Part shown: piece after piece, positions 5,761 through 33,028 of the stretch
How the letters are laid out: each line of letters opens with the position of its first letter
How positions within the stretch are numbered: the first letter of the stretch is position 1
Source of the DNA: a virus
IMG/VR virus record: IMGVR_UViG_3300017917_001388
Location: 1-42,781 of that record
Direction: 5' to 3' (one strand)
DNA length: 42,781 bases
Translations under genes and position numbers: made by a program
The notes under the pieces: generated by a model
Told to the model about the DNA's origin: nothing
Databases searched by the model: none
What the model saw: the letters and a program-made list of their open reading frames with translations, nothing else

Positions 5761-8700
5761 ATGACCACAACCAGCAGACAAAATAATTTAATTCTGAACC
5801 AAGATTGGACTAGGATATATCAGACATTTAAAAATGCAGATTTTAAATCCTATGATTTTGAAAATCTACGCAGGGTTATTATCACATATCTACGTGAAAA
5901 TTATCCTGAAGACTTCAATGATTATATCGAAAGTTCTGAGTATATGGCTCTTATTGATGCCATCGCCTTTCTCGGTCAGAGTCTCAGTTTCCGCATTGAC
6001 CTAGCCAGCCGTGAAAATTTCATCGAGCTAGCAGAAACTAAAGAAAGTGTTTTGAGGATCGCTCGCATGCTTTCTTATAATGCTAAACGCACAGTAGCTG
6101 CCAAGGGATTACTGAAGTTTACCACGGTGTCTACCACAGAAGATATCCTTGACAGCAATGGAAAAAATCTTTCGCAACAGACCATTTCTTGGAATGATCC
6201 TACTAATACCAATTGGCTAGAACAGTTTATACTGGTGTTGAATTCTGCTATGGCAGATAACACAGAGTTTGGACGCAGCCAGGGATCTGCTACCATCCAA
6301 GGAATCCCTACAGAACAGTATCGCTTTAGAACAACTACCACAGATGTTCCTATATACGCATTTACAAAAACAGTGGCGTCAAGAGGAATGCCTTTTGAAA
6401 TAGTTTCTACAGCATTCAAGAACAGTGAAAATATCTACGAAGAACCACCAGTGCCAGCCAATCAATTAGGTTTTGTTTATCGCAATGATGGCACAGGTCC
6501 GGGCAGCGCCAACACTGGTTTCTTCTTGATGTTTAAACAAGGAACACTACAACTGGCAGATTTCTCTATCGATGTTCCTACTACCAATGAAAAAATAGCT
6601 GTTGATGCTGCAAACATCAACAATGATGACGTATGGTTGTTCAGCCTAAATTCGGCAGCAGTGCAACTAGAAGAATGGAGCAAGGTTGAATCTCTAGTAG
6701 GTAGCAATATTGCCTATAACAGTGTGAGTCAAAATATCAGGAATATCTATGCCATCAATACCAAAGAAAATGATAATATTGATCTAGTGTTTGCTGATGG
6801 AGTCTATGGAAATCTTCCTCAAGGTGCATTCAGAGTCTATTATAGAGTCAGCAACGGGCTATCCTATATTGTATATCCAAATGAACTTAGAGGCATTAAC
6901 ATAGCCATCAACTATCTAAACAAGTCGGGAGTGGTTCACACGTTAACAGTGGGACTAGCACTGCAATCTACAGTTTCTAATTCAGCTGCTTCAGAAGACA
7001 TAGACACGATTAGGACCAATGCTCCTGCTGTGTATTACACACAGAATCGCATGATTACTGCTGAGGACTATAATCTAGCGCCTTTATCTAGTTCTCAAAA
7101 TATCGTAAAGATCAAAGCAGTGAACAGAACATCCAGCGGCATATCTAGGAATTATGATATCATTGATGCATCGGGCAAATATAGCAGCATCAATGTATTT
7201 TCAGATGACGGATATATCTATAAAGAACAACAAGAAGATACATTGTCATTTAAATTTAATAATCGAGTAGACATAATTAATTTTATTAGAAGAAGCATTG
7301 AACCAGCGTTTACTGATTCTGAAGTTTACAATTTTTATCTGACAAAATTTGACAAAATTATTTTTACAGATTCCAACACTGTGTGGCAGTCTGTGACGTC
7401 TTCTACACCAACAGGATATTTTAAAAACACTGTAGACGGAGCACTATTAAAGGTAGCGGCATATTCGACTAATAATTTAAAATATGTTTACCCCGGAAGT
7501 TTAATAAAATTTGTCCCTCCGAACGGATATGCTTTTAAAAATAATAAAATAGTAGACAAAGATGCTAAAGATCCAGATCAGCTAGATAGACTTTGGATAA
7601 AGATAATTAAAGTAACCGGCGACGGAACCAATGCAGGTCGCGGCACATTGGCCAATGGTCTTGGTCCTATAATAACAAGTTCCCCAGTGCCTAGCGGTGC
7701 AATAGCATCAAGAATAGTGCCTAGATTTGTCAATGATTTATCAACGGCTCTAGAAACAGAAATAGTCAATCAGGCATTTAACAATTTAAATTTTGGTCTA
7801 AGATATGATGTGGAAAATTCTCAATGGAAGATTATAACTGCTAATAATATCGATTTGATAGATAGTTTTACTCTAGGCAAGGCAGGAGACACCACAAATT
7901 CAAATGTTGATGCATCGTGGATCATTGCATTTGTCAAGACAGCAGATAGGTATACGGTTAGAATAAGAAAAATGGCCTATGTATTTGGCAGCCTAAATCA
8001 AAATCGTTTTTATTTTGATTCTAATGAAAAGAAATACAATGATCAGATCGGCAATGTGGTCAAAGATCAAATCACGATATTAGGCATAAATTCCGGTAGT
8101 GATTTTATCACAGAACTTAAACAGAATGTTCCTTTCGAAATCACAGACACTATCAAATTTGACGATGGATATGAAAGCACCACAGAAATAAAAATTTCAT
8201 TTTATGATTCTAACAGTGATGGTGTTATAGATAATCCTGAATCTTTTGAGATAGTGGTGGGTCTAGACCAAGATTTGAATTATCTATTTTTCCAGGAAGC
8301 TGTTGACGTCTACGGAACAACATCATATGCTTTGGTTGACAATTCGCAAAATTTTATTATAATCCGAGAAAAAGAATCGTTGATAGACCTAACAGACGCA
8401 GTTTCATACCCAGATGGTCAACTGATATATTTTTATGACACTGCCGAAGATATTGTAAAAATGGTCAATAGGTCAACTAACACTCTAGACATTGATAACA
8501 CTTATAAAGCAGCCGTAGGACGACGCGATTTAAAATTCCAATACATTCATAATGCCAGTGTGGATCGCAGGATAGATCCCAGTTCCAGCAACATTATTGA
8601 TCTATATCTATTAACGAGATCTTATGATACAGAATTTAGGAATTATCTATCTGGGGCTGTGACCACAGAACCAGAGGCACCCGACAGTGACAGTCTAAGA

Positions 8701-9168
8701 ACAACATTCGGCACTAATCTTTCTGCCATTAAATCTATCAGTGACGAAATCATATATCATCCTGTGAAATACAAAGTATTGTTTGGATCAAAGGCAGACA
8801 CAAAATTACAGGCCACTTTTAAGATAGTGAAAAATCCAAATCTATCAATCAATGACAATGATTTAAAAGTTAGGGTCATAACTGCCATTAATAATTTCTT
8901 CGATATCAACAATTGGGATTTTGGAGATAGGTTCTATATGAGCGAACTCACTACATATATTTTAAATTCAGTGGCTCCCGATTTGGCCAATATAGTAATA
9001 GTTCCTAAACAGTCCGATCAGGTGTTTGGTAGTTTATTTGAAATTCAAAGTAGATCAGATGAGATACTAGCCAGCGGTGCAACTGTGGACGACGTCGAAG
9101 TAGTGACTTCAATCACAGCATCTGAGATTGGCGCGAATATGTCTAGCGTAGTTACCACAACTTATTAA
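5761..9168 (+). CDS. 6: Baseplate wedge subunit gp6 (baseplate J-like), enlarged
   Basis: Wedge protein that in T4 forms the inner iris of the baseplate. Residues about 84-110 carry a RENFIELAETKESVLRIARML-type motif typical of gp6/baseplate J. Residues about 412-438 hold EDIDTIRTNAPAVYYTQNR followed by ITAEDY, the strongest family hallmark. The last part, from about residue 1045, has NNWDFGDRFYMSELTTYI and FGSLFEIQSRSDEI, a typical gp6 C-terminus. The protein is 1135 aa against 660 aa for T4 gp6; the extra length lies mainly between the ITAEDY motif and the C-terminal domain. The start follows a 42-base gap with a TAAATA element. The giant gene starts two bases after its stop. Confidence 0.9.
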   Translation: MTTTSRQNNLILNQDWTRIYQTFKNADFKSYDFENLRRVIITYLRENYPEDFNDYIESSEYMALIDAIAFLGQSLSFRIDLASRENFIELAETKESVLRIARMLSYNAKRTVAAKGLLKFTTVSTTEDILDSNGKNLSQQTISWNDPTNTNWLEQFILVLNSAMADNTEFGRSQGSATIQGIPTEQYRFRTTTTDVPIYAFTKTVASRGMPFEIVSTAFKNSENIYEEPPVPANQLGFVYRNDGTGPGSANTGFFLMFKQGTLQLADFSIDVPTTNEKIAVDAANINNDDVWLFSLNSAAVQLEEWSKVESLVGSNIAYNSVSQNIRNIYAINTKENDNIDLVFADGVYGNLPQGAFRVYYRVSNGLSYIVYPNELRGINIAINYLNKSGVVHTLTVGLALQSTVSNSAASEDIDTIRTNAPAVYYTQNRMITAEDYNLAPLSSSQNIVKIKAVNRTSSGISRNYDIIDASGKYSSINVFSDDGYIYKEQQEDTLSFKFNNRVDIINFIRRSIEPAFTDSEVYNFYLTKFDKIIFTDSNTVWQSVTSSTPTGYFKNTVDGALLKVAAYSTNNLKYVYPGSLIKFVPPNGYAFKNNKIVDKDAKDPDQLDRLWIKIIKVTGDGTNAGRGTLANGLGPIITSSPVPSGAIASRIVPRFVNDLSTALETEIVNQAFNNLNFGLRYDVENSQWKIITANNIDLIDSFTLGKAGDTTNSNVDASWIIAFVKTADRYTVRIRKMAYVFGSLNQNRFYFDSNEKKYNDQIGNVVKDQITILGINSGSDFITELKQNVPFEITDTIKFDDGYESTTEIKISFYDSNSDGVIDNPESFEIVVGLDQDLNYLFFQEAVDVYGTTSYALVDNSQNFIIIREKESLIDLTDAVSYPDGQLIYFYDTAEDIVKMVNRSTNTLDIDNTYKAAVGRRDLKFQYIHNASVDRRIDPSSSNIIDLYLLTRSYDTEFRNYLSGAVTTEPEAPDSDSLRTTFGTNLSAIKSISDEIIYHPVKYKVLFGSKADTKLQATFKIVKNPNLSINDNDLKVRVITAINNFFDINNWDFGDRFYMSELTTYILNSVAPDLANIVIVPKQSDQVFGSLFEIQSRSDEILASGATVDDVEVVTSITASEIGANMSSVVTTTY

Positions 9169-9170
9169 TT

Positions 9171-12100
9171 ATGGCAGAAAAATATTTTCCTAAAAGCAAT
9201 TTACCTATAAGAAGAAGTGTAGAACTTCTTCCGGTTATATTTCAAACAGACGCCAATGATAAATTTTTATCTGGAGTTTTAGACCCGCTAGTTCAACCTG
9301 GCGTGTTGGATAAAGTTGTTGGTTATATCGGAAGAAGATATGGTAAAACCTACAGCGGTAAAGACGTTTATGTTGACACCGATGCCACACTGAGAAGCAG
9401 ATATCAACTTGAACCCGGGGTAACTTACAAGAATCAAGAAAAAATTGAAAATTTCTATGACTATCTTGATTTTAAAAATCAATTAAAATTTTTCGGCAAC
9501 AATGATGACCGAGATGACAAAGTTACCAGCCAAACTCATTACACCTGGAACCCTCCTATCGATTGGGACAAATTCATTAACTATCGAGAATACTACTGGG
9601 AACCCAACGGTCCTCCTAGCACAAAAGTGTTTGGTCAGACCACAAAAATCAACAGCACTTACAAAGTTGTTTTAGGTTCTACAAAAAATACTTTTGTATT
9701 CACACCCGACTCATATACAAATAATCCCACAGTTACCCTTTATAGAGGACAAACCTATAAATTCAGGATTAATGCTCCTGGTGAAGGTTTTGCTATAAGA
9801 ACAAATTATGATACGGGATCTCTATTGTTTAAGCCCAGTTATGGATATCGTGCAGGAAGTCTGGCGGTATATGACAACAAATTATGGAGAGCCAAACAAG
9901 ATATAAATCCTTTGGATGGCAGTTCTATCACCTTAGATAGCCAAGATTGGACCTATGTAGAACCTGCAAGTTCAGGAGCAGCACTAGAATATAAAAAAGG
10001 CATTACCAATAACGGAATTGAAAATGGAACATTGACTTTTGAAGTGCCCTATGATGCTCCGGACGTTCTGTTCTATCAAGGATTAATCACACCTGATTGT
10101 TTTGGTAAATTCATAATCTCTGATATAGAAGCCAATACATATGTAGATGTTGACAAAGAAATAGTAGGCAAAACAACCTATACGTCAGGAAACGGAGTTG
10201 AATTTACCAACGGCTTGGTGGTTGAGTTTTTAGGAAATGTTTCTCCTTCTAAATATTCTCAAGAAACATGGTTAGTGGAAGGTGTTGGCCGAGCTATTAC
10301 ACTGACTAAATTTTCAGAACTCATAGTGCCTGTGCTTACAGCAGATGTTCCTGAAGTGTTATTTGACAATGAAGGATTTGACAGCCAACCATTTGATGAT
10401 GCATCGGCATATCCGACATACAAAGATTACATAACCATAGCTAGAGACAGCAGAGATTCTAATCCTTGGAGCAGATATAATCGTTGGTTCCATCGCAGTG
10501 TTTTAGAAACTGCCTATGCATCACGAGGAGAAGATTTTCCTGCGGTAGAAACCAGCAGAGCAAGAAGACCTATTATAGAATTCCAAGCTAACCTTCAGCT
10601 TTATAATTTCGGATCAGTGGCCAAGCAAACTGTGGATTACATTGATTCATACACCACTGATGTATTTTCTAAGATAGAAGGATCGGCTGGTTATAGCATA
10701 GACGGAGAATTCCTATTCCAGGGTGCGAGAATACTGATTATTGCCGACACAGATTCTCTTTCTAATAATAAAATCTATGAAGTTGAGTTTATAACACATC
10801 TTGGTAGACAACAAATACATCTAAAAGAAACTGCTGATACTGATTCCTTTGCAGGAGAATCTGTGTTGATCCGAAGAGGATCAGTCAATGGAGGCAAGAT
10901 GTTCTATTTTAACGGAACATCGTGGATAGAAAGCCAAGCTAAAACATCAGTGAACCAGCCTCCTTTGTTTGATGTGTTTGATGAAAATGGAGTGAGTTTT
11001 TCAGATGCCACAACTTATCCAACCAGCACTTTTGTGGGATCTAAATTATTAAGTTATAAGCAAGGTAATGGTAGAGTTGACACTGAATTAGGTTTTAAAT
11101 TAAGTTATCTCAACATCAACAATGTAGGAGATATTCAATTTGATTGGAATTGGGAAATAGAAAGTTTTTCGTATGTAATAGATAGAGTATCGTATACCAC
11201 AAAGATTTCTCAAGGATTTTATCTACTTAATCCTAATTCAGAATATAAAAACGGCTGGATTGATTTGTCTACTGATTATCTACAACCTATCATAGACAGT
11301 CAAGTGGTATCGGAATCTACTAATGTATTGACCTTTGACACAGTTTTATGGGATGATCTAATAGATGAGCCCACTGTGAATTTTTATATAAATGGAATCA
11401 AATATGATGGCACATGGACCAGAACACAAAACAAATTCTCATTCTCTTCGTCTTTTGCAGCCAAGGATGTTGTTTCTGTCAAGGTTATCACAGATCTAGA
11501 ACCTTATCAAGGCTTTTACGAAATACCAATAGGCCTAGAAAAAAATCCGTTCAACGATGCATTACAGACATTTACACTGGGACAGGCCATCGATCATGTG
11601 GCATCGGCTGTAGAATTTGATACCACATTCTCTGGTGTGATTCCGGGAAATTCAAATCTAAGAAATATCAATGAATATAATACTCATGCCAAGAGATTTT
11701 TGAAACATTCTGGCATTATTCCATTGTCTATAATGACCTTGTGTGATAAAACTCATAATATTGTCAAGTCGGTTCAATATGCTGAAAAATCATACACAGA
11801 ATTTAAAAATAATTTCTTGTCGAGAGCTCTAGAAATAGATTACAATGACAGCATAGTTGATTTTGTAGATGACATTATTAACAGCCTGACAAAAACTAAA
11901 AATTCAGATAGTCCTTTTGCTGATTCAGATATGATCGGAGCAGGTGCTTTTACATCTATAATTTATGATGTGGAAGATACTGGGATAAAAACATTTTCAT
12001 TATCTGAAAAATTTGATCTCCAAACATTGAGTAGGAAAGCAGTTTACGTTTATAAAAACAATCAACAACTGTTAAATTCTAAACAATATCAATTCGATTC

Positions 12101-15100
12101 TACTTTTGGATTTGTGAGATTATTTGTTGATATTGCAGAGGGAGACATCATTGAAATACGAGAATATGTGTCATCAGCCACTAATCACATTCCTCCTACT
12201 CCTACGTCAATGGGACTGTATAAAAAATACACACCATCAAAGTTTTTAGATGATACTTATGTTGAACCAAGATTAGTCATACAAGGGCATGACGGCAGTA
12301 TTACTGCTGCATATGGTGATTTCCGAGATGACCTGCTGCTAGAATTAGAATTCAGGATCTACAATAATATCAAACAAGAATATGATCCCGCAGTCTTTGA
12401 CATAGACAGCATAATTGGTGGATACTATGGGCATGGTTTATATAAAAAATCTCAGCTCGATGACATAGTTGTGCAAGAATTTTTAAAATGGATACAGAAC
12501 ACAAATATCAATTACACAAATAACGAGTATTTTGACAGTCAAAATCCGTTTACTTATACATATTCTAACATGACTGACCCAACCAGAAAGGTCAACCTTC
12601 CTGGTTATTGGAGAGGTGTGTATCAGTGGTTCTATGACACAGATCGTCCTCATCGTTGCCCGTGGGAAATGTTGGGATTCAGCGAGAAGCCCGAATGGTG
12701 GGAAAGTGTTTACGGTCCAGCACCCTACACTTCCAATAACTTAATCCTATGGGAAGATCTAGAAGCCGGATACATTCGCCAAGGTAATAGGTCAGGCCGT
12801 CACGACAGATATAAACGTCCTGGTTTGCTTAATCATATTCCTGTGGACGGCGATGGAAAATTATTAGATCCTTTAAGTTCTGGTCTTGCACAGGATTTCA
12901 GTCTGATTAATAATCGTGGACCATTTTCATTAGGTGATGTTTCCCCGGCAGAATACGGATGGAGATCCAGCAGCGAATGGCCGTTTGCTGTGGTCATGGC
13001 CATGTGTTTGATGAAACCTTTTGAATATATTACAGATAATTTTGATAAGTCAAATACAAAACTTAATAGGTTGGGACAGTATATTAGAAAGGATTCGGGT
13101 TCATTTGCACGTATTGAAGATATAGTAAACCAAGCATCAACTAAGCTAACTGTTGGTTTGGTAAAATATATTGTGAGCTATATAAGATCTAGAGGATTGT
13201 CTACAGACACATTGTGGAACAAGATCACTAATCTAGGAGTATCTCTTTCTTATAGAATGAGTGGATTCGTGGATCAAGACCAACAGAAATTCTTGTTAGA
13301 TTCTAAGAGTCCTGCATCAACAACTTCTAGTATCTATGTGCCACCGGAAAATTATGACATAATTTTTAATGTCAGCTCACCTATCCTAGGGGTATCTTAC
13401 AGTGGCGTCATACTAGAAAAGACAGAAGGGGGCTGGATAGTCACAGGTTACGATGATATCCATCCTTACTTTAACTATCATGCTCCTTTGCAATCTAATA
13501 GAGATCCTGTGATTTCTGTAGGAGGAATCAGTGAGAATTTCACAGACTGGACTGAAAACAAAAATTACAACAACGGAATTTTGGTCAGGTATCAAGGAAA
13601 TTTTTACAGAGCTATAAAAACACATAACAGTGGAACTGCATTCAATTCTACTGATTGGAAAAAATTAGGAGATATTCCTAAAATAGGTGCGGTGGAGGCA
13701 CTGCGTCGCAGGACTTTCAACACCTTGGCGGTAAAAAGAGTCAGTTATGGCACGAAATTGACCAGCATACAGCAAGTGGTTGATTTGTTATTGGGTTACG
13801 AAAATTATCTAAAAAGCCAAGGGTTTACCTTTGATAGGTATGACGCAGAGAATCAAATTTCACAGGATTGGCTGGGTGCTGCTAAAGAGTTCATGTTTTG
13901 GACCAAACATAATTGGGAAATAGGCAGTCTTATCGCACTCAGCCCTGCCGCAGAGAAAGTTGATATCACTGTGCCAGTGGGAGTATCAGATAACATACTA
14001 GACGGATTCTACGATTATCAGATACTCAAAGGTGATGGTAAACCTTTACAACCTAGATTTATTAATGTAAACAGATCATTTCAAAACGTCACAGTTGAAA
14101 CAACCAACACTACAGATGGAATCTATTACTTAAGATTATACTATGTGTTAAAAGAACATGTAACTATCTTTGATGATCGAACAGTGTTCAATGATATCAT
14201 CTATGACAAGACCACAGGTTACCGCCAGGGGCGGATCAAGGTTCAGGGATTTAGAACAGTTGACTGGGACGGTGACTATACCAGTCCGGGATTCTTATTT
14301 GATAATGTTGACATTAAATCATGGCAACCTTGGACTGATTACAAGCTAGGTGATATTGTGGCCTATAAATCTTATAATTGGACCAGTTTGTCAAATCAAT
14401 TAGGCACCGAAACATTTGATGAAACCTATTGGACAAAATTAGACACCACTCCTACAAAACAGCTAGTGGCAAATTTTGATTTCAAGATAAAACAATTTTC
14501 TGATTACTTTGAAGTAGCTTCAGAAGGTATCAACCAAAGCCAACGAGACCTAGCTCGGCATGCAATCGGCTATCAGCAGAGAGATTACCTACAGAATCTA
14601 GCACAAGATCCAGTCAGTCAGTTCCAACTCTATAGAGGTTTCGTGAGAGAAAAAGGAACAGCTAATTCTATCACTAAAATATTTGGAAAACTAAGCAGAT
14701 CCGGCAGCGACAGCATTATGCTCAACGAAGAATGGGCATTCCTGTTAGGTAAGATGGGAGGTGTTGATCAGCTGACAGAAGTAGAAATACAATTAGAGAA
14801 AAACAAGTTTACTCTAAATCCGCAGTTATTTTTAATTAAGAATTCTGAAAATAAACAGGCAGTTGATCAAAATTATCAACTGACCGCTACAGATTTTACG
14901 ATATCATTGATTCCTTACAGCACGGATATCAATCCTGTTTCTGTAGAACAGCAATTGACGCAGACCGCAGGGTATGTTTCCAAGGATCAATATGAACATG
15001 TGTTGGCTACCAAGGCAAATCTAACTTCATTGGATATTACAACAGTCTTTGAAAACGATCACATATGGATCACATTTGAAAAAGATTCATGGACAGTGTT

Positions 15101-18100
15101 GAGAATTAATGAATCTCCTCTACTATATGTTGTTGGAGTAGTTAGGCCAGAAGACACAAAAGTTACATTAACTTTAAATAGACCTCATGCTATTCAAGTT
15201 AATGATTTTATTGGCATTAGGGAACTGACTAATCTCACTGGATTCTTCAAGGTCATAGAAATTACTAGCAGAACTATCAGTGTAGAAATTCCAGCAGACA
15301 ACGAAGATCCAAGTATTGATTCCAGCACAATTATAAATCTACAGCTACTCACAGATTGTAGATATAGCACATATGAAAACTTAGATCAAAAATCAGCAGC
15401 ATTGCTAAAAAATAAATCTAGACTGTTTATAGATGCTAATGGTAACGACGCCTGGGAAGTGGTAGAAAAAAATAAACAGTATCTACCAAAGTTGATAGAC
15501 AATTATAGTGTATCATCTCCTATAGGCATAGGAACAAAAGTTTTATATGATAATAATTTTAAACATTCTTTTGTTTCAATTCCAGGATCGGGAATAGTAA
15601 ACATTTATGTGGAATCAGATACAGGACTGATATTAAAACAAATCATTTCCCCTCCTACGGGTTTCTATGATATAGCATTAGGATCATTTGGTAATAAGAT
15701 GACTGTGAGCCCAGATGGGCGCCTCTTAGTAATTTCCGCACCAGAAGCCAGCGGAGTTCCTAGTGGGTATAGAGGCCTATGGGGAGCTGATGTGGCCTAT
15801 CAAGAAAATGATGTAGTTCTATATGAGGGCAGGTTGTGGCGAGCCAAAAATTCAAACACAGTGATAGGTGACGGCAGCACTGAACTTGCTGTAAACACAG
15901 ATGACTGGGAATTGGCTAAGATCATACCTGTAACAACTTCGGGAAACAATGAAGGATTCTATCAACAAGGTATGGTGGCTGTATATGAATATACAGATGG
16001 AAGATTCGTGCAAACAGCAGCATTGATCAGTCCTCGACCTGTCGATAACGAAAAATTTGGATCGGAATTAGCAATTGGTGTAAGCGGATCTCAGAGCATA
16101 TTGGCAGTATCTGCAATTGGTGCATATAATGGCACTGGTCGTGTTTATCTGTTTAGCTACGATGGTACCAGTTGGTCTCATTTAGAGAATCCTCTTTACA
16201 AAGGGGTATACGATCCACTGGCAACTTATTATGCCGGTGAAATAGTTTGGCAAGCCTCTCAAGACCCTATATCAGAAGGGGTTAGGGGAAATCTATGGCA
16301 GTGTTTAGATACTTCAACAAGTGACGGTAGCACCCTTACTGTAGATTCTAATAATTGGCTCAAAGTCAGCGATATCTCCACAAATTGTTCTTTGCCTACA
16401 AATATTGCAGTTCCAGATGACGGATCAACTTTAGAATTTGCTATCACTGGTTTGCTTTCAGATATGCAGATGGCCGAGCTGATTAAACAGGGTGATCAAT
16501 TTGGATTTTCTCTGGCAATGAGCCAAGACACAAATGTTTTAATTATAGGTGCACCTTATGCCGATGGACAATATTTTGCTAATTATCGAGGATTATGGAG
16601 ATCTGATGTAGAATATGTCGAAGGAGAAGTTGTAAAATATCAGAGCGGGCCTATGCAAGGCTATCAATACTATAAGCTAGGAGACACATCCGACTCTACT
16701 GTAGATTCCACCTATAGAAGTTTCAATGAAGATCCTTCTAACAGTGCTAATTGGCAGGTAGTAGGAGACAGTACCACAACTGCTTCTGGTAAGATATTTG
16801 TTTATAAAAAAACACCATATGGGTCTTATGAATTAACACAGATGATAAATTCAGGATCCTTGTCATCATTCACAGACATTGATTCTGGATTGGTTATCAG
16901 CACAGGCGATGAATTTGGTTTTGCTATAGATGTAGATTCGACCGGTGACACCCTGATAGTAAGTAGTCCTAAGTCAGATATCAACTTCCAAGATCAAGGA
17001 TCTGTTTATGTTCTCGGCCTAGATAAATCAACTACAGAATATAGAGTTAAACAGAGATTAGAAAGTTATGAAATATATGCCAACGAATATTTTGGTTATG
17101 GAATTTCTATCAGTCCTGACGGTTCTAAGATAGCTGTAGGTGCCAGAAACGTCAAAACTCCATATCAGGTAAATTTTGATATTCTTCTAGGAACAACATT
17201 TGATAATGCACGAACAACATTTTATGTTGAACAAGGGTATACTGGCGGCGTGTATGTGTTTGACAAAAAAGATCAGGTATTTTTCTTGACCGAGAAACTA
17301 GATGCAGATCTAGAAACAGATGAAGCGTTCGGATACAGCATTGACTGTGTGGGATCTTCAGTGTTAGTGGGCTCTCCATATTACAGAGCTCCGAAGACTC
17401 ATTTTACAGGTGCCATAGTCTACGAAGGTCCTTATACAGGCACCGCAAGATTATTTAAGAAAAATAACGATGTTTCATCATGGAATATTCTTGCTCAACA
17501 ACAATCTCTAGTCGACATTAGAAAGATACACAGCATAGAATTATATGATAACGTCAATGACATAAAGATACAAGATGTGGATCATATTGATCCTGCGAAA
17601 GGCAAGATTTTAAATCTAGCAGAAAGAGAAATTAAATTTAAAACGCCCTACGACCCTGCAGTCTACACTATAGGAACAGATGATGTTGTGGTAGATACCA
17701 CAGTGAATTGGTTAGAAAAAAACGTGGGTAAGTTATGGTGGGACACATCTAAGGCAAAATGGATTTATGCTGAACAGAAAGATGAAGCATACAGATCCGG
17801 CAACTGGTTACAATTAGCTGAAGGATCAAGCATAGCTGTGTATGAGTGGGTGGAAACTGCCTTATTGCCCAGTGAATGGGCAGCTTTAGCTGACACTAAC
17901 GAAGGACTAGCAGAAGGCATAAGCGGTCAACCGTTGTATCCCAACGATGATGTTTACAGCGTGAAGTATTTTTACAGTGCTGTTAACGGAAAAATAAATG
18001 ATACGCTATACTATTATTGGGTGAAATCAAAATCAGTCACACCTGTTAACATGCCAGATAGAACAAGATCAGCAGCAGAAGTGGAAAATCTAATATCAAA

Positions 18101-21100
18101 TCCTATTGGTACAGGTATAGCTTTTATTGCTCTGATAGCTTCAGATAAATTTGTAACCTATAATTTCCAGTCAGTGATAAATTCTGACACTGCTTTACTG
18201 AATATACAGTATAAAAATGATTTCAAAAATCTAAACCCAGTTCATAGAGAATATCAACTGTTAACAGAGGGAGTGGCAGACAGTTTACCTGCACAACAAT
18301 TAGAGAACAAATGGATTGATAGTCTATTAGGCTATGACATGTCGGGAAATCGAGTGCCCGATAACAATTTACCAACCAAACAAAAATACGGTATTTCTTA
18401 TAGACCTAGACAAAATATGTTTGTTGATAGACAAACAGCACTGAAGCAAGTCATAGGAAATATCAATAGTGTTCTACAAAAAGATGCATTTGCGAATGTA
18501 ATAGATTTTGTAAATCTAAATTCTGTAGACTCAATACCTTCAGATGTTTTGAATTTATATGATGTAGCAGTAGACAACGAAATAGATTTACAGACAGTAG
18601 GCACTATCAGAACCAAAAGAGCTGTATTGAAATCCAATATAGTCAATGGCGAATTAGACACCATTGATATCGTAGATCCTGGATTTGGATATAAACCAAA
18701 AGAATTATTCAATCAGGAGATACCAGGTATCTATATAGGTCCTCCAATCACTATCCAAGGCGATGGTGTAGACGCCGAGGCAAGATGCCACATCGACGGA
18801 CAGGGCAGAATTATCGCCGTGGTTGTTACCAACAGGGGTAAAAAATACAGTAGATTGACTGCAACAGTGAGATATTTTTCTGTATTAGTTAGACAAGATT
18901 CAACCATCAACAATTTTTGGAGCATCTATTCTTGGGACGATGTTCGTAGAGTATTTTTCCGTAGTCAATCGCAGGCATATGACACCACGAGGTATTGGAA
19001 TTATGCTGATTGGTGGGCAGAAGGATATGGTCCTTTAACAAGAATCACTAAGGAATTTAACAGCGTCTATGAAGAACCCACCCAATCAGTGTCCGTGGGG
19101 GATCTAATTAGAATTAAAGAATATGCCGCAGGCGGTTGGGCTGTGTTTGAAAAAACATCAACTGTTGGCGCTACGTTTCTAGACAGATATACCCCTATAG
19201 GTAGACAAGATGGAACCATACAGTTATCATCTTCTTTATATGATACAGCTATCTCGGGTATAGGATTTGACAATACACAGGCTTTTGATGACACTAACTA
19301 TGACGTGGATAGTTCTAAAGAATTGAGAAACATATTCACAGCAGTCAAAGAAAATATATTCATAGGTGATTATGCAGTTGAATGGAATAAATTATTCTTT
19401 TCTTCAATGCGATATATTTTATCCGAGCAACAATATGTAGATTGGCTGTTTAAAACCAGTTTCGTAAACGCCACCCATAATATTGGTCCGTTTGAACAAA
19501 AAGTAAACTATAAGAGCGACAATCTATCTAGTTATCAGGATTATATTTCAGAGGTTAAGCCTTATAGGACCACAGTTAGAGAATATGTGAGCCGATACGA
19601 AACAGTAGAAAAGTATCAATCTTCCGCAGCTGACTTTGATCTTCCATCTACATATTCTTCGATAGATGGCAAGGTAGTAACGATCACTGCTGACAGATCT
19701 GAATTGCAGCAGTATCCATGGAAATGGTGGACAGATAATAATGGATATTCTATAGTTTCTATAGAAGTATATAAACAAGGTTCTCAATACACAACTCCGC
19801 CTAAAGTATTGATAGAAGGCGACGGAGCAGGTGCTGCCGCTCAGGCCTATATTTCAAATGGAAAAGTATCTGGCATAGTGGTTACCGATAAAGGCAGCGG
19901 ATATACTAAGACTCCTAAGATCACCTTGGTAGGAGGAAATCCTTCAGAAGCCGTGCAAGCCAAAGCAGTGGCTGTTATCGGAGACACCAAAGTCAGAACA
20001 TTTGATATTTCTGTGAAATTTGACAGAGTGTCTAAACTAAAAGATTTTGTATCTTATCAACAGAGCCAGGAATTTGTAGCCAACGGATTGACGTCTGTGT
20101 TTTATCTCAACTATGCCCCTACTAGAGATAAGAATAAAATTTCTATATTAAAAAATAATCAATTAGTTTTGTCTAATGAATATTCGATTAATTTATATTA
20201 TTCTTCCAGTGACAGCTATTCGTTGCTAAGAGGAAAAGTGGTTTTTGTCCAAGCACCTTCGGCAGGGGATGTGATCAGCATTATCTATGATAAAAATATT
20301 GAGTTACTTACTGCTGTAAACAGAATAGATCAATTCTATAATCCAACATCGGGAATGATTGGTAAAGATCTCAATCAGTTGATGACAGGTATTGATTTTG
20401 GTGGAGTGCAGATTCAAGGAACTACTTTTGAAGTAACGGGTGGTTGGGATGCTCTACCTTGGTTCACTGATAATTGGGACTCAGTGGAAACTAGTTCAGA
20501 TTATTATCATGTCTGTGATGGCAGCACAGGAACTATAACATTACCTTACATTCCAAAAGCAGGTCAAGAAATAAACATCTATATAAAGAGAAAAGATAGT
20601 GCAAAATCTATAAGAATTGACAGTGAAAATTATTTTGAAAATAATGATTCTAGCACCGGTATTAATCCTAATGCAGAAATGCCAACATTTGTAGGTGATG
20701 GAGCCAATGCTGTTGTTGTAATAGGAGAATATATAGAAACTGCCGACGGCGATATATTGATATTCCGACCTATAGAAAGTGATGGTTCTGTTACTATAAC
20801 TGATGATAACCTATTAGATACTAAATTAAGTGGCGGATCATTATCGGCCATCAGTGGGTCATATGTTACCGCTACAGGCATGACAGCTGAAGAGATATCT
20901 ATAACAGGTGGTAAGTTTATCAGCCCAGAACAGGTTCCTGCTCCAGAGGAAAATATACCCGGTCAAGTTTTAGATAGTTTCTCACTAAGAGTATATCAAA
21001 GTCCTATATCCGGATCAGTGCCATTGCAATCTAAGATATCACAGGCCAATGGAACTACAACCACATATCCAATTGGCCAGACTGTGATTGAAAATAATTC

Positions 21101-22988
21101 GGTATTTGTATATGTAGGAAATGTGAAAAAAGAATTCGGTGTTGATTATCAAATAGATCTAGAAAACTATAATGTTGAATTCAACACCGCACCAACTCAG
21201 GGACAATTGGTAGAAATATTATCTGTTGGAATTGGAGGTTTAGGCATCTTAGACTATCAAACTTTTGTTGCTGATGGAACCACTAACTTGTTCTTAACTA
21301 ATGCCAATTATGATTATACGTCTAGCATATTTGTAACCGTTAATGGAGAACACGTAGACACTGGATTTAAAAACAGCACAGACGTTGTTGACGCTGTGGG
21401 TAGAACATTAATTGAATTTGGCATATCACCAGCAGCGGGCGATATCGTAAAAATCGTGTGCTTACAGGCAGCATCTGATGTGGATTCATCAGGATTAGCC
21501 ATTGTTAAAGTTAACACACAAACTTTCTATTTTGAAGGATCTACTCTAAGTTTTGACCTAGATAATTTTGTAGAACTTGGAAGGGGTTCTGCACGTAACT
21601 CTATGATAGTCGAGGTTAATGGAAAAGTATTAAAAGGATCTGATACTGTATATGCTGTATATGACGGAACCAATAATCAATTTACTTTAGGAACCGATCC
21701 ATATGAATCTGCAGGTAGTATTTTACCTAGTAACATACGAGTATTTGTCAATAGCATAGAGATACCATTCATAACAGATTACACTTTCGACGGTCCTACA
21801 AAGGTATTAACTATCTATCCTACAAAACTAACAGTAGGTGATATAATTAAGATACAAAACAGCCTAAGAGCTCAATATAGCATTGTGGGCAGCAATCTAG
21901 TGATTGGGTATGATGTTGACCTACAAAACACTGATGAAACAAATAACGATAAGATAGAAGTTACATGGTTTTCTGAATATCCTTCATTAGATATAATCTC
22001 AGACCAAAAATCTGGTGGACGAGTCAATTACAAATTATCTCGTCGACCTATATCTGCTAGTTATGTGTGGGTTTATAAAAATGGTGAGAGATTACGTCAA
22101 GAAAAAGATTATTATGTATCTTTACCCAGAGGTGTGGTATATCTAAACGTAGATTCAACTGAGACCGATGATATCAAGACCATTAGTTTTACCAGCGACA
22201 TATTTACACTACCCAGTGCCTGGGAAATACACAAAGACATGTTGAATATCTATCATTATCAAAGATTTTCTAAAGGTGAAATAACACTGGCTGCTCAGTT
22301 GAATTATTATGACACCACTATAACAGTCAACAATGCATCCAGTCTTGCTAATCCTATCAGTAATAGGAATCTACCGGGTATAATTTATATCTCCGGAGAA
22401 CGCATTGAATACATGAATAAAAACGGAAATGTGCTATCACAATTAAGAAGGGGAGTTCAGGGCACAGCAATAGCAGAAACCTATTCTGCGGGAACCGCAG
22501 TGGTTGATATTGGATATGAAGAAACTATACCGTATAATGAAACTCAAGAAAGATCGGATTTCTATAGCGATGGCAGCACATTATTAGTTGGCGTTTTAGA
22601 TTTCGTCCCCAAACAGGGCACTAGAAGCGGAACTTGGTTTAGATCCACTATTCCTTCAGCATACGGACCTTGCGATGAAATTGAAGTGTTTGCTGGTGGA
22701 CGCAGATTGCGCAAAGATCCCTACGATATTTGGATAGAAAACAACGGAGCCTATAGCCCAGATGCAGATGAAACCCAAGAAGCAGAATTTAGTGTAGATG
22801 GAATTTCAGCTAATATCAGATTGACAACTGCTCTTCCTGCAGGAACAAGGATCACTGTCATCAGGAGACTAGGCAAAATTTGGTATCAAAGAGGAGAAAC
22901 CACAGCCAGTGCAGGAATCACCCTGATAGATAACGACACTGCGGTGGCTAGATTCATAGCACAAAAGACCACTTCCTTACCTGAATAA
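9171..22988 (+). CDS. Giant baseplate/tail-fibre protein with CBM and FG-GAP modules (4605 aa)
   Basis: A single uninterrupted 4605-codon frame in the place of T4 gp7. The N-terminus, about residues 1-135, has a SNLPIRRSVELLPVIFQTD-type segment and WNPPIDWDKFINYREYYW, and may dock to the baseplate. A Trp/Tyr-rich domain lies near 1140-1300 (GYWRGVYQWFYDTDRP, PEWWESVYGPAPY). Six CBM5/12-like modules are visible near residues 224-263, 1460-1500, 1718-1759, 2200-2248, 2343-2399 and 2472-2533. Six FG-GAP-like blades span 2167-2776. GxGY-type beta repeats lie near 3164-3234 and 3527-3597. Beta-sandwich repeats with a VNG...DY...GD pattern are densest at 3639-4340. A PGIIYISGERIEYM...LRRG module lies near 4374-4449. 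There is no lyase or hydrolase signature. I infer a virion component that binds surface polysaccharide. A fused gp7-type wedge plus fibre is the main alternative. Confidence 0.8.
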   Translation: MAEKYFPKSNLPIRRSVELLPVIFQTDANDKFLSGVLDPLVQPGVLDKVVGYIGRRYGKTYSGKDVYVDTDATLRSRYQLEPGVTYKNQEKIENFYDYLDFKNQLKFFGNNDDRDDKVTSQTHYTWNPPIDWDKFINYREYYWEPNGPPSTKVFGQTTKINSTYKVVLGSTKNTFVFTPDSYTNNPTVTLYRGQTYKFRINAPGEGFAIRTNYDTGSLLFKPSYGYRAGSLAVYDNKLWRAKQDINPLDGSSITLDSQDWTYVEPASSGAALEYKKGITNNGIENGTLTFEVPYDAPDVLFYQGLITPDCFGKFIISDIEANTYVDVDKEIVGKTTYTSGNGVEFTNGLVVEFLGNVSPSKYSQETWLVEGVGRAITLTKFSELIVPVLTADVPEVLFDNEGFDSQPFDDASAYPTYKDYITIARDSRDSNPWSRYNRWFHRSVLETAYASRGEDFPAVETSRARRPIIEFQANLQLYNFGSVAKQTVDYIDSYTTDVFSKIEGSAGYSIDGEFLFQGARILIIADTDSLSNNKIYEVEFITHLGRQQIHLKETADTDSFAGESVLIRRGSVNGGKMFYFNGTSWIESQAKTSVNQPPLFDVFDENGVSFSDATTYPTSTFVGSKLLSYKQGNGRVDTELGFKLSYLNINNVGDIQFDWNWEIESFSYVIDRVSYTTKISQGFYLLNPNSEYKNGWIDLSTDYLQPIIDSQVVSESTNVLTFDTVLWDDLIDEPTVNFYINGIKYDGTWTRTQNKFSFSSSFAAKDVVSVKVITDLEPYQGFYEIPIGLEKNPFNDALQTFTLGQAIDHVASAVEFDTTFSGVIPGNSNLRNINEYNTHAKRFLKHSGIIPLSIMTLCDKTHNIVKSVQYAEKSYTEFKNNFLSRALEIDYNDSIVDFVDDIINSLTKTKNSDSPFADSDMIGAGAFTSIIYDVEDTGIKTFSLSEKFDLQTLSRKAVYVYKNNQQLLNSKQYQFDSTFGFVRLFVDIAEGDIIEIREYVSSATNHIPPTPTSMGLYKKYTPSKFLDDTYVEPRLVIQGHDGSITAAYGDFRDDLLLELEFRIYNNIKQEYDPAVFDIDSIIGGYYGHGLYKKSQLDDIVVQEFLKWIQNTNINYTNNEYFDSQNPFTYTYSNMTDPTRKVNLPGYWRGVYQWFYDTDRPHRCPWEMLGFSEKPEWWESVYGPAPYTSNNLILWEDLEAGYIRQGNRSGRHDRYKRPGLLNHIPVDGDGKLLDPLSSGLAQDFSLINNRGPFSLGDVSPAEYGWRSSSEWPFAVVMAMCLMKPFEYITDNFDKSNTKLNRLGQYIRKDSGSFARIEDIVNQASTKLTVGLVKYIVSYIRSRGLSTDTLWNKITNLGVSLSYRMSGFVDQDQQKFLLDSKSPASTTSSIYVPPENYDIIFNVSSPILGVSYSGVILEKTEGGWIVTGYDDIHPYFNYHAPLQSNRDPVISVGGISENFTDWTENKNYNNGILVRYQGNFYRAIKTHNSGTAFNSTDWKKLGDIPKIGAVEALRRRTFNTLAVKRVSYGTKLTSIQQVVDLLLGYENYLKSQGFTFDRYDAENQISQDWLGAAKEFMFWTKHNWEIGSLIALSPAAEKVDITVPVGVSDNILDGFYDYQILKGDGKPLQPRFINVNRSFQNVTVETTNTTDGIYYLRLYYVLKEHVTIFDDRTVFNDIIYDKTTGYRQGRIKVQGFRTVDWDGDYTSPGFLFDNVDIKSWQPWTDYKLGDIVAYKSYNWTSLSNQLGTETFDETYWTKLDTTPTKQLVANFDFKIKQFSDYFEVASEGINQSQRDLARHAIGYQQRDYLQNLAQDPVSQFQLYRGFVREKGTANSITKIFGKLSRSGSDSIMLNEEWAFLLGKMGGVDQLTEVEIQLEKNKFTLNPQLFLIKNSENKQAVDQNYQLTATDFTISLIPYSTDINPVSVEQQLTQTAGYVSKDQYEHVLATKANLTSLDITTVFENDHIWITFEKDSWTVLRINESPLLYVVGVVRPEDTKVTLTLNRPHAIQVNDFIGIRELTNLTGFFKVIEITSRTISVEIPADNEDPSIDSSTIINLQLLTDCRYSTYENLDQKSAALLKNKSRLFIDANGNDAWEVVEKNKQYLPKLIDNYSVSSPIGIGTKVLYDNNFKHSFVSIPGSGIVNIYVESDTGLILKQIISPPTGFYDIALGSFGNKMTVSPDGRLLVISAPEASGVPSGYRGLWGADVAYQENDVVLYEGRLWRAKNSNTVIGDGSTELAVNTDDWELAKIIPVTTSGNNEGFYQQGMVAVYEYTDGRFVQTAALISPRPVDNEKFGSELAIGVSGSQSILAVSAIGAYNGTGRVYLFSYDGTSWSHLENPLYKGVYDPLATYYAGEIVWQASQDPISEGVRGNLWQCLDTSTSDGSTLTVDSNNWLKVSDISTNCSLPTNIAVPDDGSTLEFAITGLLSDMQMAELIKQGDQFGFSLAMSQDTNVLIIGAPYADGQYFANYRGLWRSDVEYVEGEVVKYQSGPMQGYQYYKLGDTSDSTVDSTYRSFNEDPSNSANWQVVGDSTTTASGKIFVYKKTPYGSYELTQMINSGSLSSFTDIDSGLVISTGDEFGFAIDVDSTGDTLIVSSPKSDINFQDQGSVYVLGLDKSTTEYRVKQRLESYEIYANEYFGYGISISPDGSKIAVGARNVKTPYQVNFDILLGTTFDNARTTFYVEQGYTGGVYVFDKKDQVFFLTEKLDADLETDEAFGYSIDCVGSSVLVGSPYYRAPKTHFTGAIVYEGPYTGTARLFKKNNDVSSWNILAQQQSLVDIRKIHSIELYDNVNDIKIQDVDHIDPAKGKILNLAEREIKFKTPYDPAVYTIGTDDVVVDTTVNWLEKNVGKLWWDTSKAKWIYAEQKDEAYRSGNWLQLAEGSSIAVYEWVETALLPSEWAALADTNEGLAEGISGQPLYPNDDVYSVKYFYSAVNGKINDTLYYYWVKSKSVTPVNMPDRTRSAAEVENLISNPIGTGIAFIALIASDKFVTYNFQSVINSDTALLNIQYKNDFKNLNPVHREYQLLTEGVADSLPAQQLENKWIDSLLGYDMSGNRVPDNNLPTKQKYGISYRPRQNMFVDRQTALKQVIGNINSVLQKDAFANVIDFVNLNSVDSIPSDVLNLYDVAVDNEIDLQTVGTIRTKRAVLKSNIVNGELDTIDIVDPGFGYKPKELFNQEIPGIYIGPPITIQGDGVDAEARCHIDGQGRIIAVVVTNRGKKYSRLTATVRYFSVLVRQDSTINNFWSIYSWDDVRRVFFRSQSQAYDTTRYWNYADWWAEGYGPLTRITKEFNSVYEEPTQSVSVGDLIRIKEYAAGGWAVFEKTSTVGATFLDRYTPIGRQDGTIQLSSSLYDTAISGIGFDNTQAFDDTNYDVDSSKELRNIFTAVKENIFIGDYAVEWNKLFFSSMRYILSEQQYVDWLFKTSFVNATHNIGPFEQKVNYKSDNLSSYQDYISEVKPYRTTVREYVSRYETVEKYQSSAADFDLPSTYSSIDGKVVTITADRSELQQYPWKWWTDNNGYSIVSIEVYKQGSQYTTPPKVLIEGDGAGAAAQAYISNGKVSGIVVTDKGSGYTKTPKITLVGGNPSEAVQAKAVAVIGDTKVRTFDISVKFDRVSKLKDFVSYQQSQEFVANGLTSVFYLNYAPTRDKNKISILKNNQLVLSNEYSINLYYSSSDSYSLLRGKVVFVQAPSAGDVISIIYDKNIELLTAVNRIDQFYNPTSGMIGKDLNQLMTGIDFGGVQIQGTTFEVTGGWDALPWFTDNWDSVETSSDYYHVCDGSTGTITLPYIPKAGQEINIYIKRKDSAKSIRIDSENYFENNDSSTGINPNAEMPTFVGDGANAVVVIGEYIETADGDILIFRPIESDGSVTITDDNLLDTKLSGGSLSAISGSYVTATGMTAEEISITGGKFISPEQVPAPEENIPGQVLDSFSLRVYQSPISGSVPLQSKISQANGTTTTYPIGQTVIENNSVFVYVGNVKKEFGVDYQIDLENYNVEFNTAPTQGQLVEILSVGIGGLGILDYQTFVADGTTNLFLTNANYDYTSSIFVTVNGEHVDTGFKNSTDVVDAVGRTLIEFGISPAAGDIVKIVCLQAASDVDSSGLAIVKVNTQTFYFEGSTLSFDLDNFVELGRGSARNSMIVEVNGKVLKGSDTVYAVYDGTNNQFTLGTDPYESAGSILPSNIRVFVNSIEIPFITDYTFDGPTKVLTIYPTKLTVGDIIKIQNSLRAQYSIVGSNLVIGYDVDLQNTDETNNDKIEVTWFSEYPSLDIISDQKSGGRVNYKLSRRPISASYVWVYKNGERLRQEKDYYVSLPRGVVYLNVDSTETDDIKTISFTSDIFTLPSAWEIHKDMLNIYHYQRFSKGEITLAAQLNYYDTTITVNNASSLANPISNRNLPGIIYISGERIEYMNKNGNVLSQLRRGVQGTAIAETYSAGTAVVDIGYEETIPYNETQERSDFYSDGSTLLVGVLDFVPKQGTRSGTWFRSTIPSAYGPCDEIEVFAGGRRLRKDPYDIWIENNGAYSPDADETQEAEFSVDGISANIRLTTALPAGTRITVIRRLGKIWYQRGETTASAGITLIDNDTAVARFIAQKTTSLPE
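9840..9959 (+). repeat. CBM5/12-like module 1
   Basis: Residues about 224-263 of the giant protein. The pattern Y-x2-G-S-x-A-V-Y-x2-K-L-W-R-A-K ending in DW about 20 residues later matches carbohydrate-binding module family 5/12 (Y..Gd.V.y.g..y.A......W). Confidence 0.5.
13548..13670 (+). repeat. CBM5/12-like module 2
   Basis: Residues about 1460-1500 of the giant protein. It has a leading Trp, Y-N-N-G-I-L-V-R-Y-Q-G-N-F-Y-R-A and a closing DWKKLG. This is the closest of the six to the family pattern. Confidence 0.6.
14322..14446 (+). repeat. CBM5/12-like module 3
   Basis: Residues about 1718-1759 of the giant protein: WQPWTDYKLGDIVAYKSYNW, then a closing YWTKLD. Confidence 0.55.
15669..17499 (+). 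repeat. FG-GAP-like beta-propeller repeats with inserted CBM-like modules
   Basis: Six repeats start near residues 2167, 2290, 2441, 2579, 2638 and 2717 of the giant protein. Each has an FG-x-S/A/G-x3-S followed by a hydrophobic strand ending in GAP, SAP, GSP or similar, and most close with G-x-V-Y-V-F/Y. Examples are FGFSLAMS...IIGAPYADG and FGYGISISPDGSKIAVGA. CBM5/12-like modules sit inside or between blades at 15768-15914, 16197-16367 and 16584-16767 (for example GLWGADVAYQENDVVLYEGR). Integrin-type propellers usually have seven blades; a seventh is not clear here. Confidence 0.65.
20085..22190 (+). repeat. Array of beta-sandwich repeats in giant protein
   Basis: At least five copies of a module of about 60-75 residues, near residues 3639-3712, 3960-4021, 4035-4100, 4164-4237 and 4281-4340. 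The shared pattern is a DGT/NGT start, F-x-L, an exposed strand such as IFVTVNG or VWVYKNGERL, a DY turn, and GD-x-I/V-x-I near the end. Earlier diverged copies are visible near 713-784 and 937-1002. This looks like a fibre shaft of stacked domains. Confidence 0.5.
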
Positions 22989-23670: not shown

Positions 23671-25794
23671 ATGCCATATACAGTTAATTTTACAGACAAA
23701 AATAACAAGACTCCTATAACTGTATTTGACAATACATCAAATACAGATACTAGCCTGATATTTCCTGGAAGGAATGTAACAGGTTACGGACAGATCATAG
23801 CAGAAAACTTCCTGGCACTGTTAGAAAATTTTTCTTCTACTGACGAGCCTATTAATCCCATAGAAGGACAACTATGGTATAATTCCACAGAAGGTATTTT
23901 AAATATATGGGATAATACGTCATGGAAAGCAGCATCCGGAATACAAAAGGGCACATCAGAACCTTCTGTGTCTCAAAGTAAGGTTGGAGAACTATGGGTC
24001 GACACCACTAATCAACAGTTGAGAATTTATACAGGAACACGTTGGATTTTGGTAGGGCCTAACGAAAGTTCCATAGATGGTTTAAGATACGGACCAGTTG
24101 TTGAAAATATTGCCGACTCTGATAATATTACCAGATATATTTTGACATTTTATATCGCAGATATTCCTGTTATTATATTTTCAAAAGATAGTTTTACTCC
24201 AAAGGTTAAGATTACCGGATTCGCTGTAATCAGAGCTGGTATAAATGTGGCTTCAGCTAAAGATGATCAGGGTAATATTGATGCCACTATTTCTGCTTTG
24301 TTCGGTGGAGGTTATCTTCCTAAATTATTTGGAACGGCAGCAAATGCCGATGCCTTAAATGTAGCGGGCGTAGAAATCTCAGCAGGAAAATTTTTAAGAT
24401 CTGATGCTGCCAATACTACCGAATATGGCATTAACGTTAGAAATAACAATGGTGTGATCATTGGTGTTGATGGCACCTTTAACCTTGCTTCGACTGCAAC
24501 AGCAGCAAAGATTTATAATTCTGCTGCAGGCAGCAGCATAGATTTACAGACAAATAGAAATGGCATACCTGCAACTGTTCTAAGAGTAGTCGACGATAAG
24601 GTAGGGATCAACCAAGCTATTCCATCAGAAGTATTGGATGTAGATGGAAATATTAAATCAACCGGCGCAGTAATTATATCTGATTCCACAGCCAGCACTA
24701 ATCTAAGCAATGGTAGTCTTAGAACTGCAGGAGGTATATCTGTAACTAAAAACATTATTGTAGGTGATGGTATAGATGTTACCGGAATATTGCAAACCAA
24801 TACTGTTCAACCCAAGACGACCGAAACTTATGATATAGGAACTGCACTAAAACGCTGGAATAATATCAGAGCAAAAACTGTAATAGCAGACACCATCCGT
24901 GGAGTGTTAGAGGGCAACATAAGTGGAAATTCTAACACAGCAACATCTCTCAAGAATATAACAAGTTTTCAAATAACAGGAGACGTGATAAGCCCAGTGG
25001 TGCAGTTTGATGGACAGGTTGGTAGCTATACCAAAGTTTTTAATACATCATTGACGGCTAATATTATTTCTTCTAAAGATGAAACTGCTTTATCTAAGAA
25101 AGGCGATTATATTCTAACATATAGACCTAGTGTAGCCTCAGCAACCAGTTCAGGTTTATTGAAACAATCAAGAGAAGCCTTTCTTGCTGATCTTGGCATT
25201 CCTATAGGAACAATACTGCCATATGCCGGAGCCAATGTTCCCTATGGATATTTGCTCTGTGACGGTTCCGAAGTTGAAAGAGCCAAATTCAGTGACTTAT
25301 ATGATGTTATAGGAACGATTTACAATGGTTCCGCAACGCTGCAAGGTGTTGATACATTTAGATTGCCCGACCTTAGAGGTCGTTTTGCGTTGGGTAAAGA
25401 TAATATGGATAATGGCGGAACAGTTCCGTTGCTTCTTGGAGGATATGTAGATGCCGGTGGCGGCTCAGCTGGTCGTGTGCCAGATATCAAATCACAGACC
25501 CTTGGGGGAGATGCCGGACAGAGTTCTGTAACGTTAACTTTGGCTAATTTGCCAGAGCATAGCCACACATTGAGATCAGCTAGGCAGGACTATTCTGCTG
25601 TGGCCGTGACCACTACTATAGATCCTGATGCGACTACTGGCCTAGGACCCACAGCCCCTGGTCAAGCTCAATATCTCAAAGATTCTGGAGGCATAAAAAA
25701 AGGTGCAGGAGTCACATTAAGCACTGCCGTAGGTATTATGAATCCTTATTTGACAATCAATTATATTATCAGATCCGGTCCAGCGGCATTCTAA
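23671..25794 (+). CDS. Tail fibre with collar-domain tip (fibre 1)
   Basis: Fibre protein of 707 aa. Residues 1-130 form the anchor shared with three downstream fibres (GYGQIIAENFLALLENF, then two Gly-x-Leu-Trp strands, ending WILVGP), and homology appears to extend to about residue 200 (KDSFTPKVKITGF). The middle is a Gly/Ser/Thr-rich beta shaft. Residues about 510-580 are a phage tail collar domain, with IPIGTILPYAG, GYLLCDGSEVERAKFSDLY and RLPDLRGRFALGKD. The C-terminus has NLPEHSH (near 627) and PYLTINYIIRSG (near 692), as in T4 gp12-like short fibres and related collar proteins. This points to a receptor-binding short-fibre role. The N-terminus is the most diverged of the four anchors. 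Confidence 0.82.
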   Translation: MPYTVNFTDKNNKTPITVFDNTSNTDTSLIFPGRNVTGYGQIIAENFLALLENFSSTDEPINPIEGQLWYNSTEGILNIWDNTSWKAASGIQKGTSEPSVSQSKVGELWVDTTNQQLRIYTGTRWILVGPNESSIDGLRYGPVVENIADSDNITRYILTFYIADIPVIIFSKDSFTPKVKITGFAVIRAGINVASAKDDQGNIDATISALFGGGYLPKLFGTAANADALNVAGVEISAGKFLRSDAANTTEYGINVRNNNGVIIGVDGTFNLASTATAAKIYNSAAGSSIDLQTNRNGIPATVLRVVDDKVGINQAIPSEVLDVDGNIKSTGAVIISDSTASTNLSNGSLRTAGGISVTKNIIVGDGIDVTGILQTNTVQPKTTETYDIGTALKRWNNIRAKTVIADTIRGVLEGNISGNSNTATSLKNITSFQITGDVISPVVQFDGQVGSYTKVFNTSLTANIISSKDETALSKKGDYILTYRPSVASATSSGLLKQSREAFLADLGIPIGTILPYAGANVPYGYLLCDGSEVERAKFSDLYDVIGTIYNGSATLQGVDTFRLPDLRGRFALGKDNMDNGGTVPLLLGGYVDAGGGSAGRVPDIKSQTLGGDAGQSSVTLTLANLPEHSHTLRSARQDYSAVAVTTTIDPDATTGLGPTAPGQAQYLKDSGGIKKGAGVTLSTAVGIMNPYLTINYIIRSGPAAF

Positions 25795-25806
25795 CAGGTT
25801 AACAAT

Positions 25807-27621: not shown

Positions 27622-27641
27622 TCATATTTGGAGCGCATTAA

Positions 27642-29909: not shown

Positions 29910-29913
29910 AAAA

Positions 29914-30270: not shown

Positions 30271-30272
30271 TA

Positions 30273-30281
30273 GAATAAATA
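30273..30281 (+). promoter_or_regulatory. GAATAAATA element, possible T4-type late promoter
   Basis: Same nine bases as at 22983-22991, in a 33-base gap upstream of fibre 4. Seven of eight bases match TATAAATA. AGGGG at 30291-30295 lies eight bases before the ATG at 30304, so promoter, ribosome-binding site and start are in workable order. Confidence 0.45.
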
Positions 30282-30303
30282 ATAGATATTAGGGGCTAAC
30301 AGC

Positions 30304-33025: not shown

Positions 33026-33028
33026 GGT

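Follow-up and report, generated by a model that had tools for sequence, protein, structure and literature searches.

CBM5/12-like modules in the loops of a predicted FG-GAP propeller at a variable site of a giant phage virion protein

The window, i.e. the whole stretch of DNA analysed here, is a virus record of 42.8 kb. The genes in and around its giant open reading frame are as follows.

Positions 5761 to 9168, plus strand: baseplate wedge protein (PHROG 10646, E 8e-290), adjoining the giant open reading frame upstream.
Positions 9171 to 22988, plus strand: giant virion structural protein of 4605 amino acids (PHROG 10938 'virion structural protein'), directly 3' of the baseplate wedge gene.
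Positions 23671 to 32112, plus strand: four tail-fibre-like genes, whose products have an N-terminal stretch of ~90 amino acids in common.

A gene for a hub/lysozyme protein also lies 5' of the giant open reading frame, and a gene for a 223-residue protein is found on its 3' side together with the four tail-fibre-like genes. Isolated jumbo phages, PA5oct, Atu_ph07, Phosso, SCTP-2 and Munch among them, encode giant virion proteins that are 22-30% identical to residues 1-1890 of the giant protein; the PA5oct homologue, gp355, has been detected by mass spectrometry according to its database record. The order of genes, with the giant between the wedge gene (gp6) and the fibre genes, is that of T4 gp7 and of VrlC, an ocean myophage baseplate protein suggested, in a passage of PMC7029224, to replace T4 gp7. 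A search with a 12-sequence profile returned no PDB match to gp7, and we therefore do not file the protein as gp7; gene order and the VrlC literature suggest that its position is gp7-like. Elsewhere in the window, positions 32114-34009 encode two adjacent look-alike proteins of ~300 amino acids each without a PHROG match, and a radical SAM protein gene lies 3' of the tail-fibre genes (positions 38646-40022); the Sinorhizobium phage Phosso has one near its homologous cluster. The photosystem gene psbA, a sign of a cyanobacterial host, was found in none of seven relatives, most of which are fragments.

Residues 2124-2778 of the giant protein make up a seven-bladed FG-GAP propeller. Pfam FG-GAP_2 gives five matches within residues 2106-2842 (E 4.2e-21), and FG blade motifs occur at residues 2173, 2296, 2444, 2582, 2641 and 2720. 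An AlphaFold model of residues 2060-2830, made from 33 sequences (the window protein and 32 metagenomic relatives), has a pLDDT of 70.0 and a pTM of 0.73 and is readable as seven four-stranded blades. Most blade strands have pLDDT values of 80-94 and the weak regions are chiefly loops; the inserted modules M5 and M6 are modelled with moderate confidence (58 to 81 in blocks of 10 residues). The closest solved structures are integrin alpha chains (Foldseek, E 2.9e-10 to 1e-9); Foldseek also matches FG-GAP proteins from giant viruses and phages. An earlier note on this DNA had proposed an FG-GAP propeller of six to seven blades; the Pfam and integrin matches bear this out, and the model has seven. 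Whole-length TM scores against the PDB are modest (≤0.36 over the query), as expected for a query that carries three inserts. PDB matches to RIPK1 and to a designed TIM barrel were set aside as chance or repeat artefacts. Judged by eye, the DxDxDG motifs of the Ca2+ loops look incomplete. The blades and inserted modules are arranged as follows.

Positions 15540 to 15647, plus strand: blade 1, residues 2124-2159, from strands in the model.
Positions 15687 to 16028, plus strand: blade 2, residues 2173-2286, FG at 2173, split by M4 in its strand 2-3 loop.
Positions 15768 to 15914, plus strand: CBM5/12-like module M4, residues 2200-2248, in the strand 2-3 loop of blade 2.
Positions 16056 to 16193, plus strand: blade 3, residues 2296-2341, FG at 2296, from the model.
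Positions 16197 to 16367, plus strand: module M5, residues 2343-2399, in the loop that links blade 3 to blade 4.
Positions 16500 to 16847, plus strand: blade 4, residues 2444-2559, FG at 2444, split by M6 in its strand 2-3 loop.
Positions 16584 to 16769, plus strand: module M6, residues 2472-2533, in the strand 2-3 loop of blade 4.
Positions 16914 to 17063, plus strand: blade 5, residues 2582-2631, FG at 2582, from Pfam and the model.
Positions 17091 to 17300, plus strand: blade 6, residues 2641-2710, FG at 2641, with a strand 2-3 loop of 33 residues.
Positions 17328 to 17504, plus strand: blade 7, residues 2720-2778, FG at 2720, from the model.

The module starts given in the earlier note (2200, 2343 and 2472) are exact in open reading frame 9171-22988, and the modules do lie within or between blades. 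M4 comes after strand 2 of blade 2, which then resumes with GMVAVYEY, and M6 is placed in the same way in blade 4, which resumes with GKIFVYKK. No G-x-V-Y-V-F strand follows M5, contrary to the earlier note: this module, which has an extra hairpin (DPIxEGVRGN), lies between the last strand of blade 3 and the FG strand of blade 4. Propellers generally bear the 2-3 and 4-1 loops on a single face, and in integrins this is the ligand-binding face. Since M4, M5 and M6 leave from 2-3 or 4-1 loops, they should project together, and by analogy they would be displayed on the single face that corresponds to the ligand-binding face of integrins.

Pfam CBM_5_12 matches M4 in 19 of 19 relatives and M6, weakly, in 12 of 19; M5 was matched in none of 18. 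Profile comparison ties both M5 (hhalign 1e-9) and M6 (1.1e-8) to M4, and in the distant relative L213, whose M5 copy is shorter, all three are weak Pfam matches. In a PDB profile search, M4 by itself matches the binding domain of a Vibrio chitin deacetylase (1.2e-7). A separate model of M4 matches chitin-binding-domain folds (2d49, 1ed7, 2rts; TMq ~0.6), those of ChiC and ChiA1 included, as well as Cis13, the Milano baseplate complex, the fibres of Agrobacterium phage 7-7-1 and the fibre of A-1(L); these matches have E values of 2.8e-3 and above, probabilities of 0.9-1 and TMq values of 0.5-0.68. Parts of contractile tails are among the best of them: Cis13 of the Anabaena injection system and the components of Milano and A-1(L). 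Three further modules lie upstream, as had been noted, and are placed at about residues 226, 1460 and 1718.

Positions 9804 to 9986, plus strand: module M1, residues 212-272, of the same subfamily as M4 (hhalign 4e-13).
Positions 13524 to 13670, plus strand: module M2, residues 1452-1500 (Pfam 31.9 bits; 1ed7, 9.7e-5).
Positions 14292 to 14468, plus strand: module M3, residues 1708-1766 (Pfam 0.0056; hhalign 3.6e-4 to M4).

M2, which is nearest to the ChiA1 chitin-binding domain, is the only module of the window protein to exceed the Pfam cut-off of 26.2 bits by itself. Profile comparison joins M1, M4, M5 and M6 strongly (4e-13 to 1e-8) and M2 and M3 more loosely.

The site at which the propeller lies differs strongly from one phage group to another. 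In isolated jumbo phages the alignment with the window protein breaks off near residue 1890 (at 2022 in Munch) and resumes near 2770; the unaligned stretch in between is 209 to 1537 residues long. The last strand of blade 7 is the start of the segment that these phages and the window protein have in common. The downstream edge of the site is clear in these phages, at about residue 2765. A precise empty site for the whole propeller was considered and rejected; its upstream half had no significant match, and so we claim only a variable site. At the protein level, tblastn found no relatives of the propeller piece in the isolated phages; other jumbo phages fill the same site differently. A LamG-like domain suspected by eye at the SCTP-2 site had no Pfam or PDB match. 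Phosso encodes two proteins of >3000 residues with dozens of FG-GAP repeats (PV764938.1: 48386-68852), separate from its giant protein, which itself has no FG-GAP match. A GxGYxxxP-type repeat at window positions 19737-19937 (residues 3523-3589) matches PHROG 460 'head closure Hc2', a label that is probably misleading here; copies of this type also occur in the variable site of Atu_ph07 and Phosso and in the blade 3 region of the relative L256.

A search with the N-terminal part of the giant protein gave at least 599 matching stretches, from which 80 further giants were taken. Both flanks were present in 73 sequences, five isolated phages included, and the stretch between them ranged from 209 residues (Munch) to 1540. 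Among 58 non-redundant sequences, the window included, M4, M5 and M6 are all present in 45, M4 and M6 in seven, M4 and M5 in two and M4 alone in one; three have none, so that ten carry a subset. In a phylogeny of the N-terminal part (from one FastTree run, with no rooting test and the direction of change at the deepest node not settled), the three members without modules fall on a deep branch together with members carrying M4 alone, M4 and M5, all three, or M4 and M6. Within a clade that otherwise has all three modules, two separate branches, L244 and L246, lack M5. L317, a homologous giant, has at the corresponding place a bare propeller of seven FG-GAP repeats that exceeds the Pfam FG-GAP_2 cut-off; its loops measure 5, 16 and 5 residues, compared to 74, 100 and 76 in the window protein. 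L274 carries two modules inside the M4 loop, and in several relatives other insertions occur near blades 3-4 or within blade 7. The propeller is retained in nearly all relatives while the modules vary. The modules are genuine loop cassettes that come and go on a propeller that persists. This reveals how a giant baseplate protein of uncultured large phages grows, with a constant propeller taking up or dropping small modules at fixed loops, and it provides a natural series for the role of each module: the bare L317, L244 and L246 without M5, the window protein with three modules, and L274 with a doubly occupied loop.

The M5 region of L140 (L140:8562-8768) and of L254 contains a different small domain, whose GTTxF/W-type motif is widespread in phages; these are insertions next to or within insertions. 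Relatives of 195-282 kb have two further adjacent giants, the N-termini of which carry tandem HTSA-type CBM5/12-like modules (L237:5555-11173 with the open reading frame at the left end, G001:C1:71000-84000; L238:4176-14001).

We propose, with evenly balanced confidence and largely by analogy, that the propeller is a platform at the variable baseplate site and that its modules dock fibres, spikes or neighbours. Lying on the outer part of the wedge, probably at the baseplate periphery, the propeller would provide a rigid platform, and the loop modules would act as docking tabs for tail fibres, spikes or neighbouring subunits, as this fold does in other contractile tails. The tailspike of Milano has an N-terminal tail-binding module of two CBA120-like domains, which sit wedged between the wedge proteins of the baseplate (PMC10811340); Cis13, which resembles a tail fibre, attaches to the baseplate through its N-terminal domains (PMC8894136); and the D2 head subdomain of CBA120 TSP1, which is virion-binding, superposes on the ChiA1 chitin-binding domain (PMC3966878). 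We count the matches of M4 to parts of Cis13, Milano and A-1(L) in favour of docking, as we do the restriction of conserved aromatics to the fold core in M1, M4 and M5 (see below) and a module conservation close to that of the propeller (mean pairwise identity 0.61-0.73 for the modules, 0.69 for the propeller). Docking is the simplest reading that accommodates the turnover of the modules, a conservation that falls mainly on core residues and the role this fold is known to have in tails. Some modules (M2, M3 and perhaps M6) may in addition bind sugars directly, as a secondary role. The four fibre proteins are candidate docking partners; none of their N-termini in the window has a matching module, which counts against docking.

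The most interesting alternative is that the modules are active carbohydrate-binding modules, six per chain and multiplied by baseplate symmetry into a multivalent sensor of host glycans, as the earlier note had it. We consider this rather unlikely. The propeller, the loop modules, the six copies per chain and the baseplate context on which it was built are all supported; the fold is that of CBM5/12, with homology to the chitin-binding domains of chitinases and chitin deacetylases, module turnover at a variable site resembles adhesin evolution, and modules of this general kind inserted into siphophage Dit proteins are described, in a passage of PMC8540738, as contributing to host binding. The prediction of six sugar binders was not supported. 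The CBM5/12 profile and small beta fold are found in M2 (above the cut-off) and M4 (all 19 relatives), and are weak in M5 and M6 taken alone. The sugar site of CBM5/12 domains consists of exposed aromatics, the WW of CBM5 or W687 of ChiA1, and W687 binds chitin. We counted aromatics across 16-19 relatives per module. In M1, M4 and M5 the conserved aromatics are the fold-core set only, and neither M4 nor M5 has an aromatic aligned with W687; the aromatic pair of the sugar site, whose lack the earlier note named as refuting its view, is thus missing from all three. M6 is borderline, with a Y/F pair beyond the core (Y2515 and F/Y2518) that is partly conserved and not invariant. M2 and M3 each have one Phe, F1491 and F1749, that is invariant in every sequence compared. 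In the profile alignment F1491 lies opposite the Trp of ChiA1 HTSLAGWEP, which is W687 (counting from residue 655); this fits glycan binding and counts against docking, and F1749 corresponds by motif. The Pfam CBM_5_12 matches fall for the most part on positions 1-31 of 44. The authors of the CBA120 TSP1 structure note that there is no report of sugar binding by head domains of this kind (PMC3966878), and in phage A-1(L) a distal carbohydrate-binding module failed to bind the host (PMC10966104). Sugar binding is not a given for a phage tail domain labelled in this way. With sugar-site aromatics missing or replaced, we describe the modules as CBM5/12-like in fold, not as proven CBMs. The sequences thus make a weak case for a glycan sensor.

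It is also unlikely that propeller and modules merely pad or stiffen an enlarged baseplate, with largely neutral module turnover. A propeller kept in nearly all relatives with variable modules would fit, as would a within-clade conservation of both that resembles neighbouring segments, and the seven-bladed propeller of SU10, with its inserted domains, is a structural part of the tail (PMC9509320). However, retention of all three modules in 45 of 58 sequences and invariant module core residues that persist over large divergence are more than neutral padding predicts. That the wedge instead of the fibre reads the host, with the propeller face presenting exchangeable sugar-binding modules, gained and lost as hosts change, and signalling baseplate opening, strikes us as quite improbable.

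The proposed docking platform can be compared with several known systems. Integrin alpha chains likewise have seven FG-GAP blades and are the best solved matches; alphaM and alphaX have an inserted I domain, and extra domains leave the 2-3 and 4-1 loops of one face. The protein described here is from a phage, its inserts have the CBM5/12 fold and not that of the I domain, and its DxDxDG loops appear incomplete. The SU10 nozzle protein is a seven-bladed tail propeller with domains between blades 2 and 3 and a fibre-docking loop; it differs in belonging to a short-tailed phage and in having Ig-like inserts, with no relation to FG-GAP or CBM domains shown (PMC9509320). PhiKZ gp131, a jumbo-phage protein cited in PMC4901313, has a C-terminal seven-bladed propeller that lies at the baseplate periphery. 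There, the propeller is a terminal domain, the passage mentions no CBM-like inserts, and the likeness is one of description. Evolved Dit proteins, as described in a passage of PMC8540738, resemble the giant protein in having CBM-type domains inserted into a baseplate protein, but they belong to siphophages, use other CBM families and have no propeller. The VrlC of pelagimyophages and cyanophages is, like the giant, a large baseplate protein beside the structural cluster; the passage on VrlC mentions no propeller, and the likeness is by description and not by sequence (PMC7029224). The small ChiA1-like fold is found in the attachment parts CBA120 TSP1 D2 (PMC3966878), Milano TSP (PMC10811340) and Cis13 (PMC8894136), where it is borne by fibres and spikes and not by a wedge-type giant protein.
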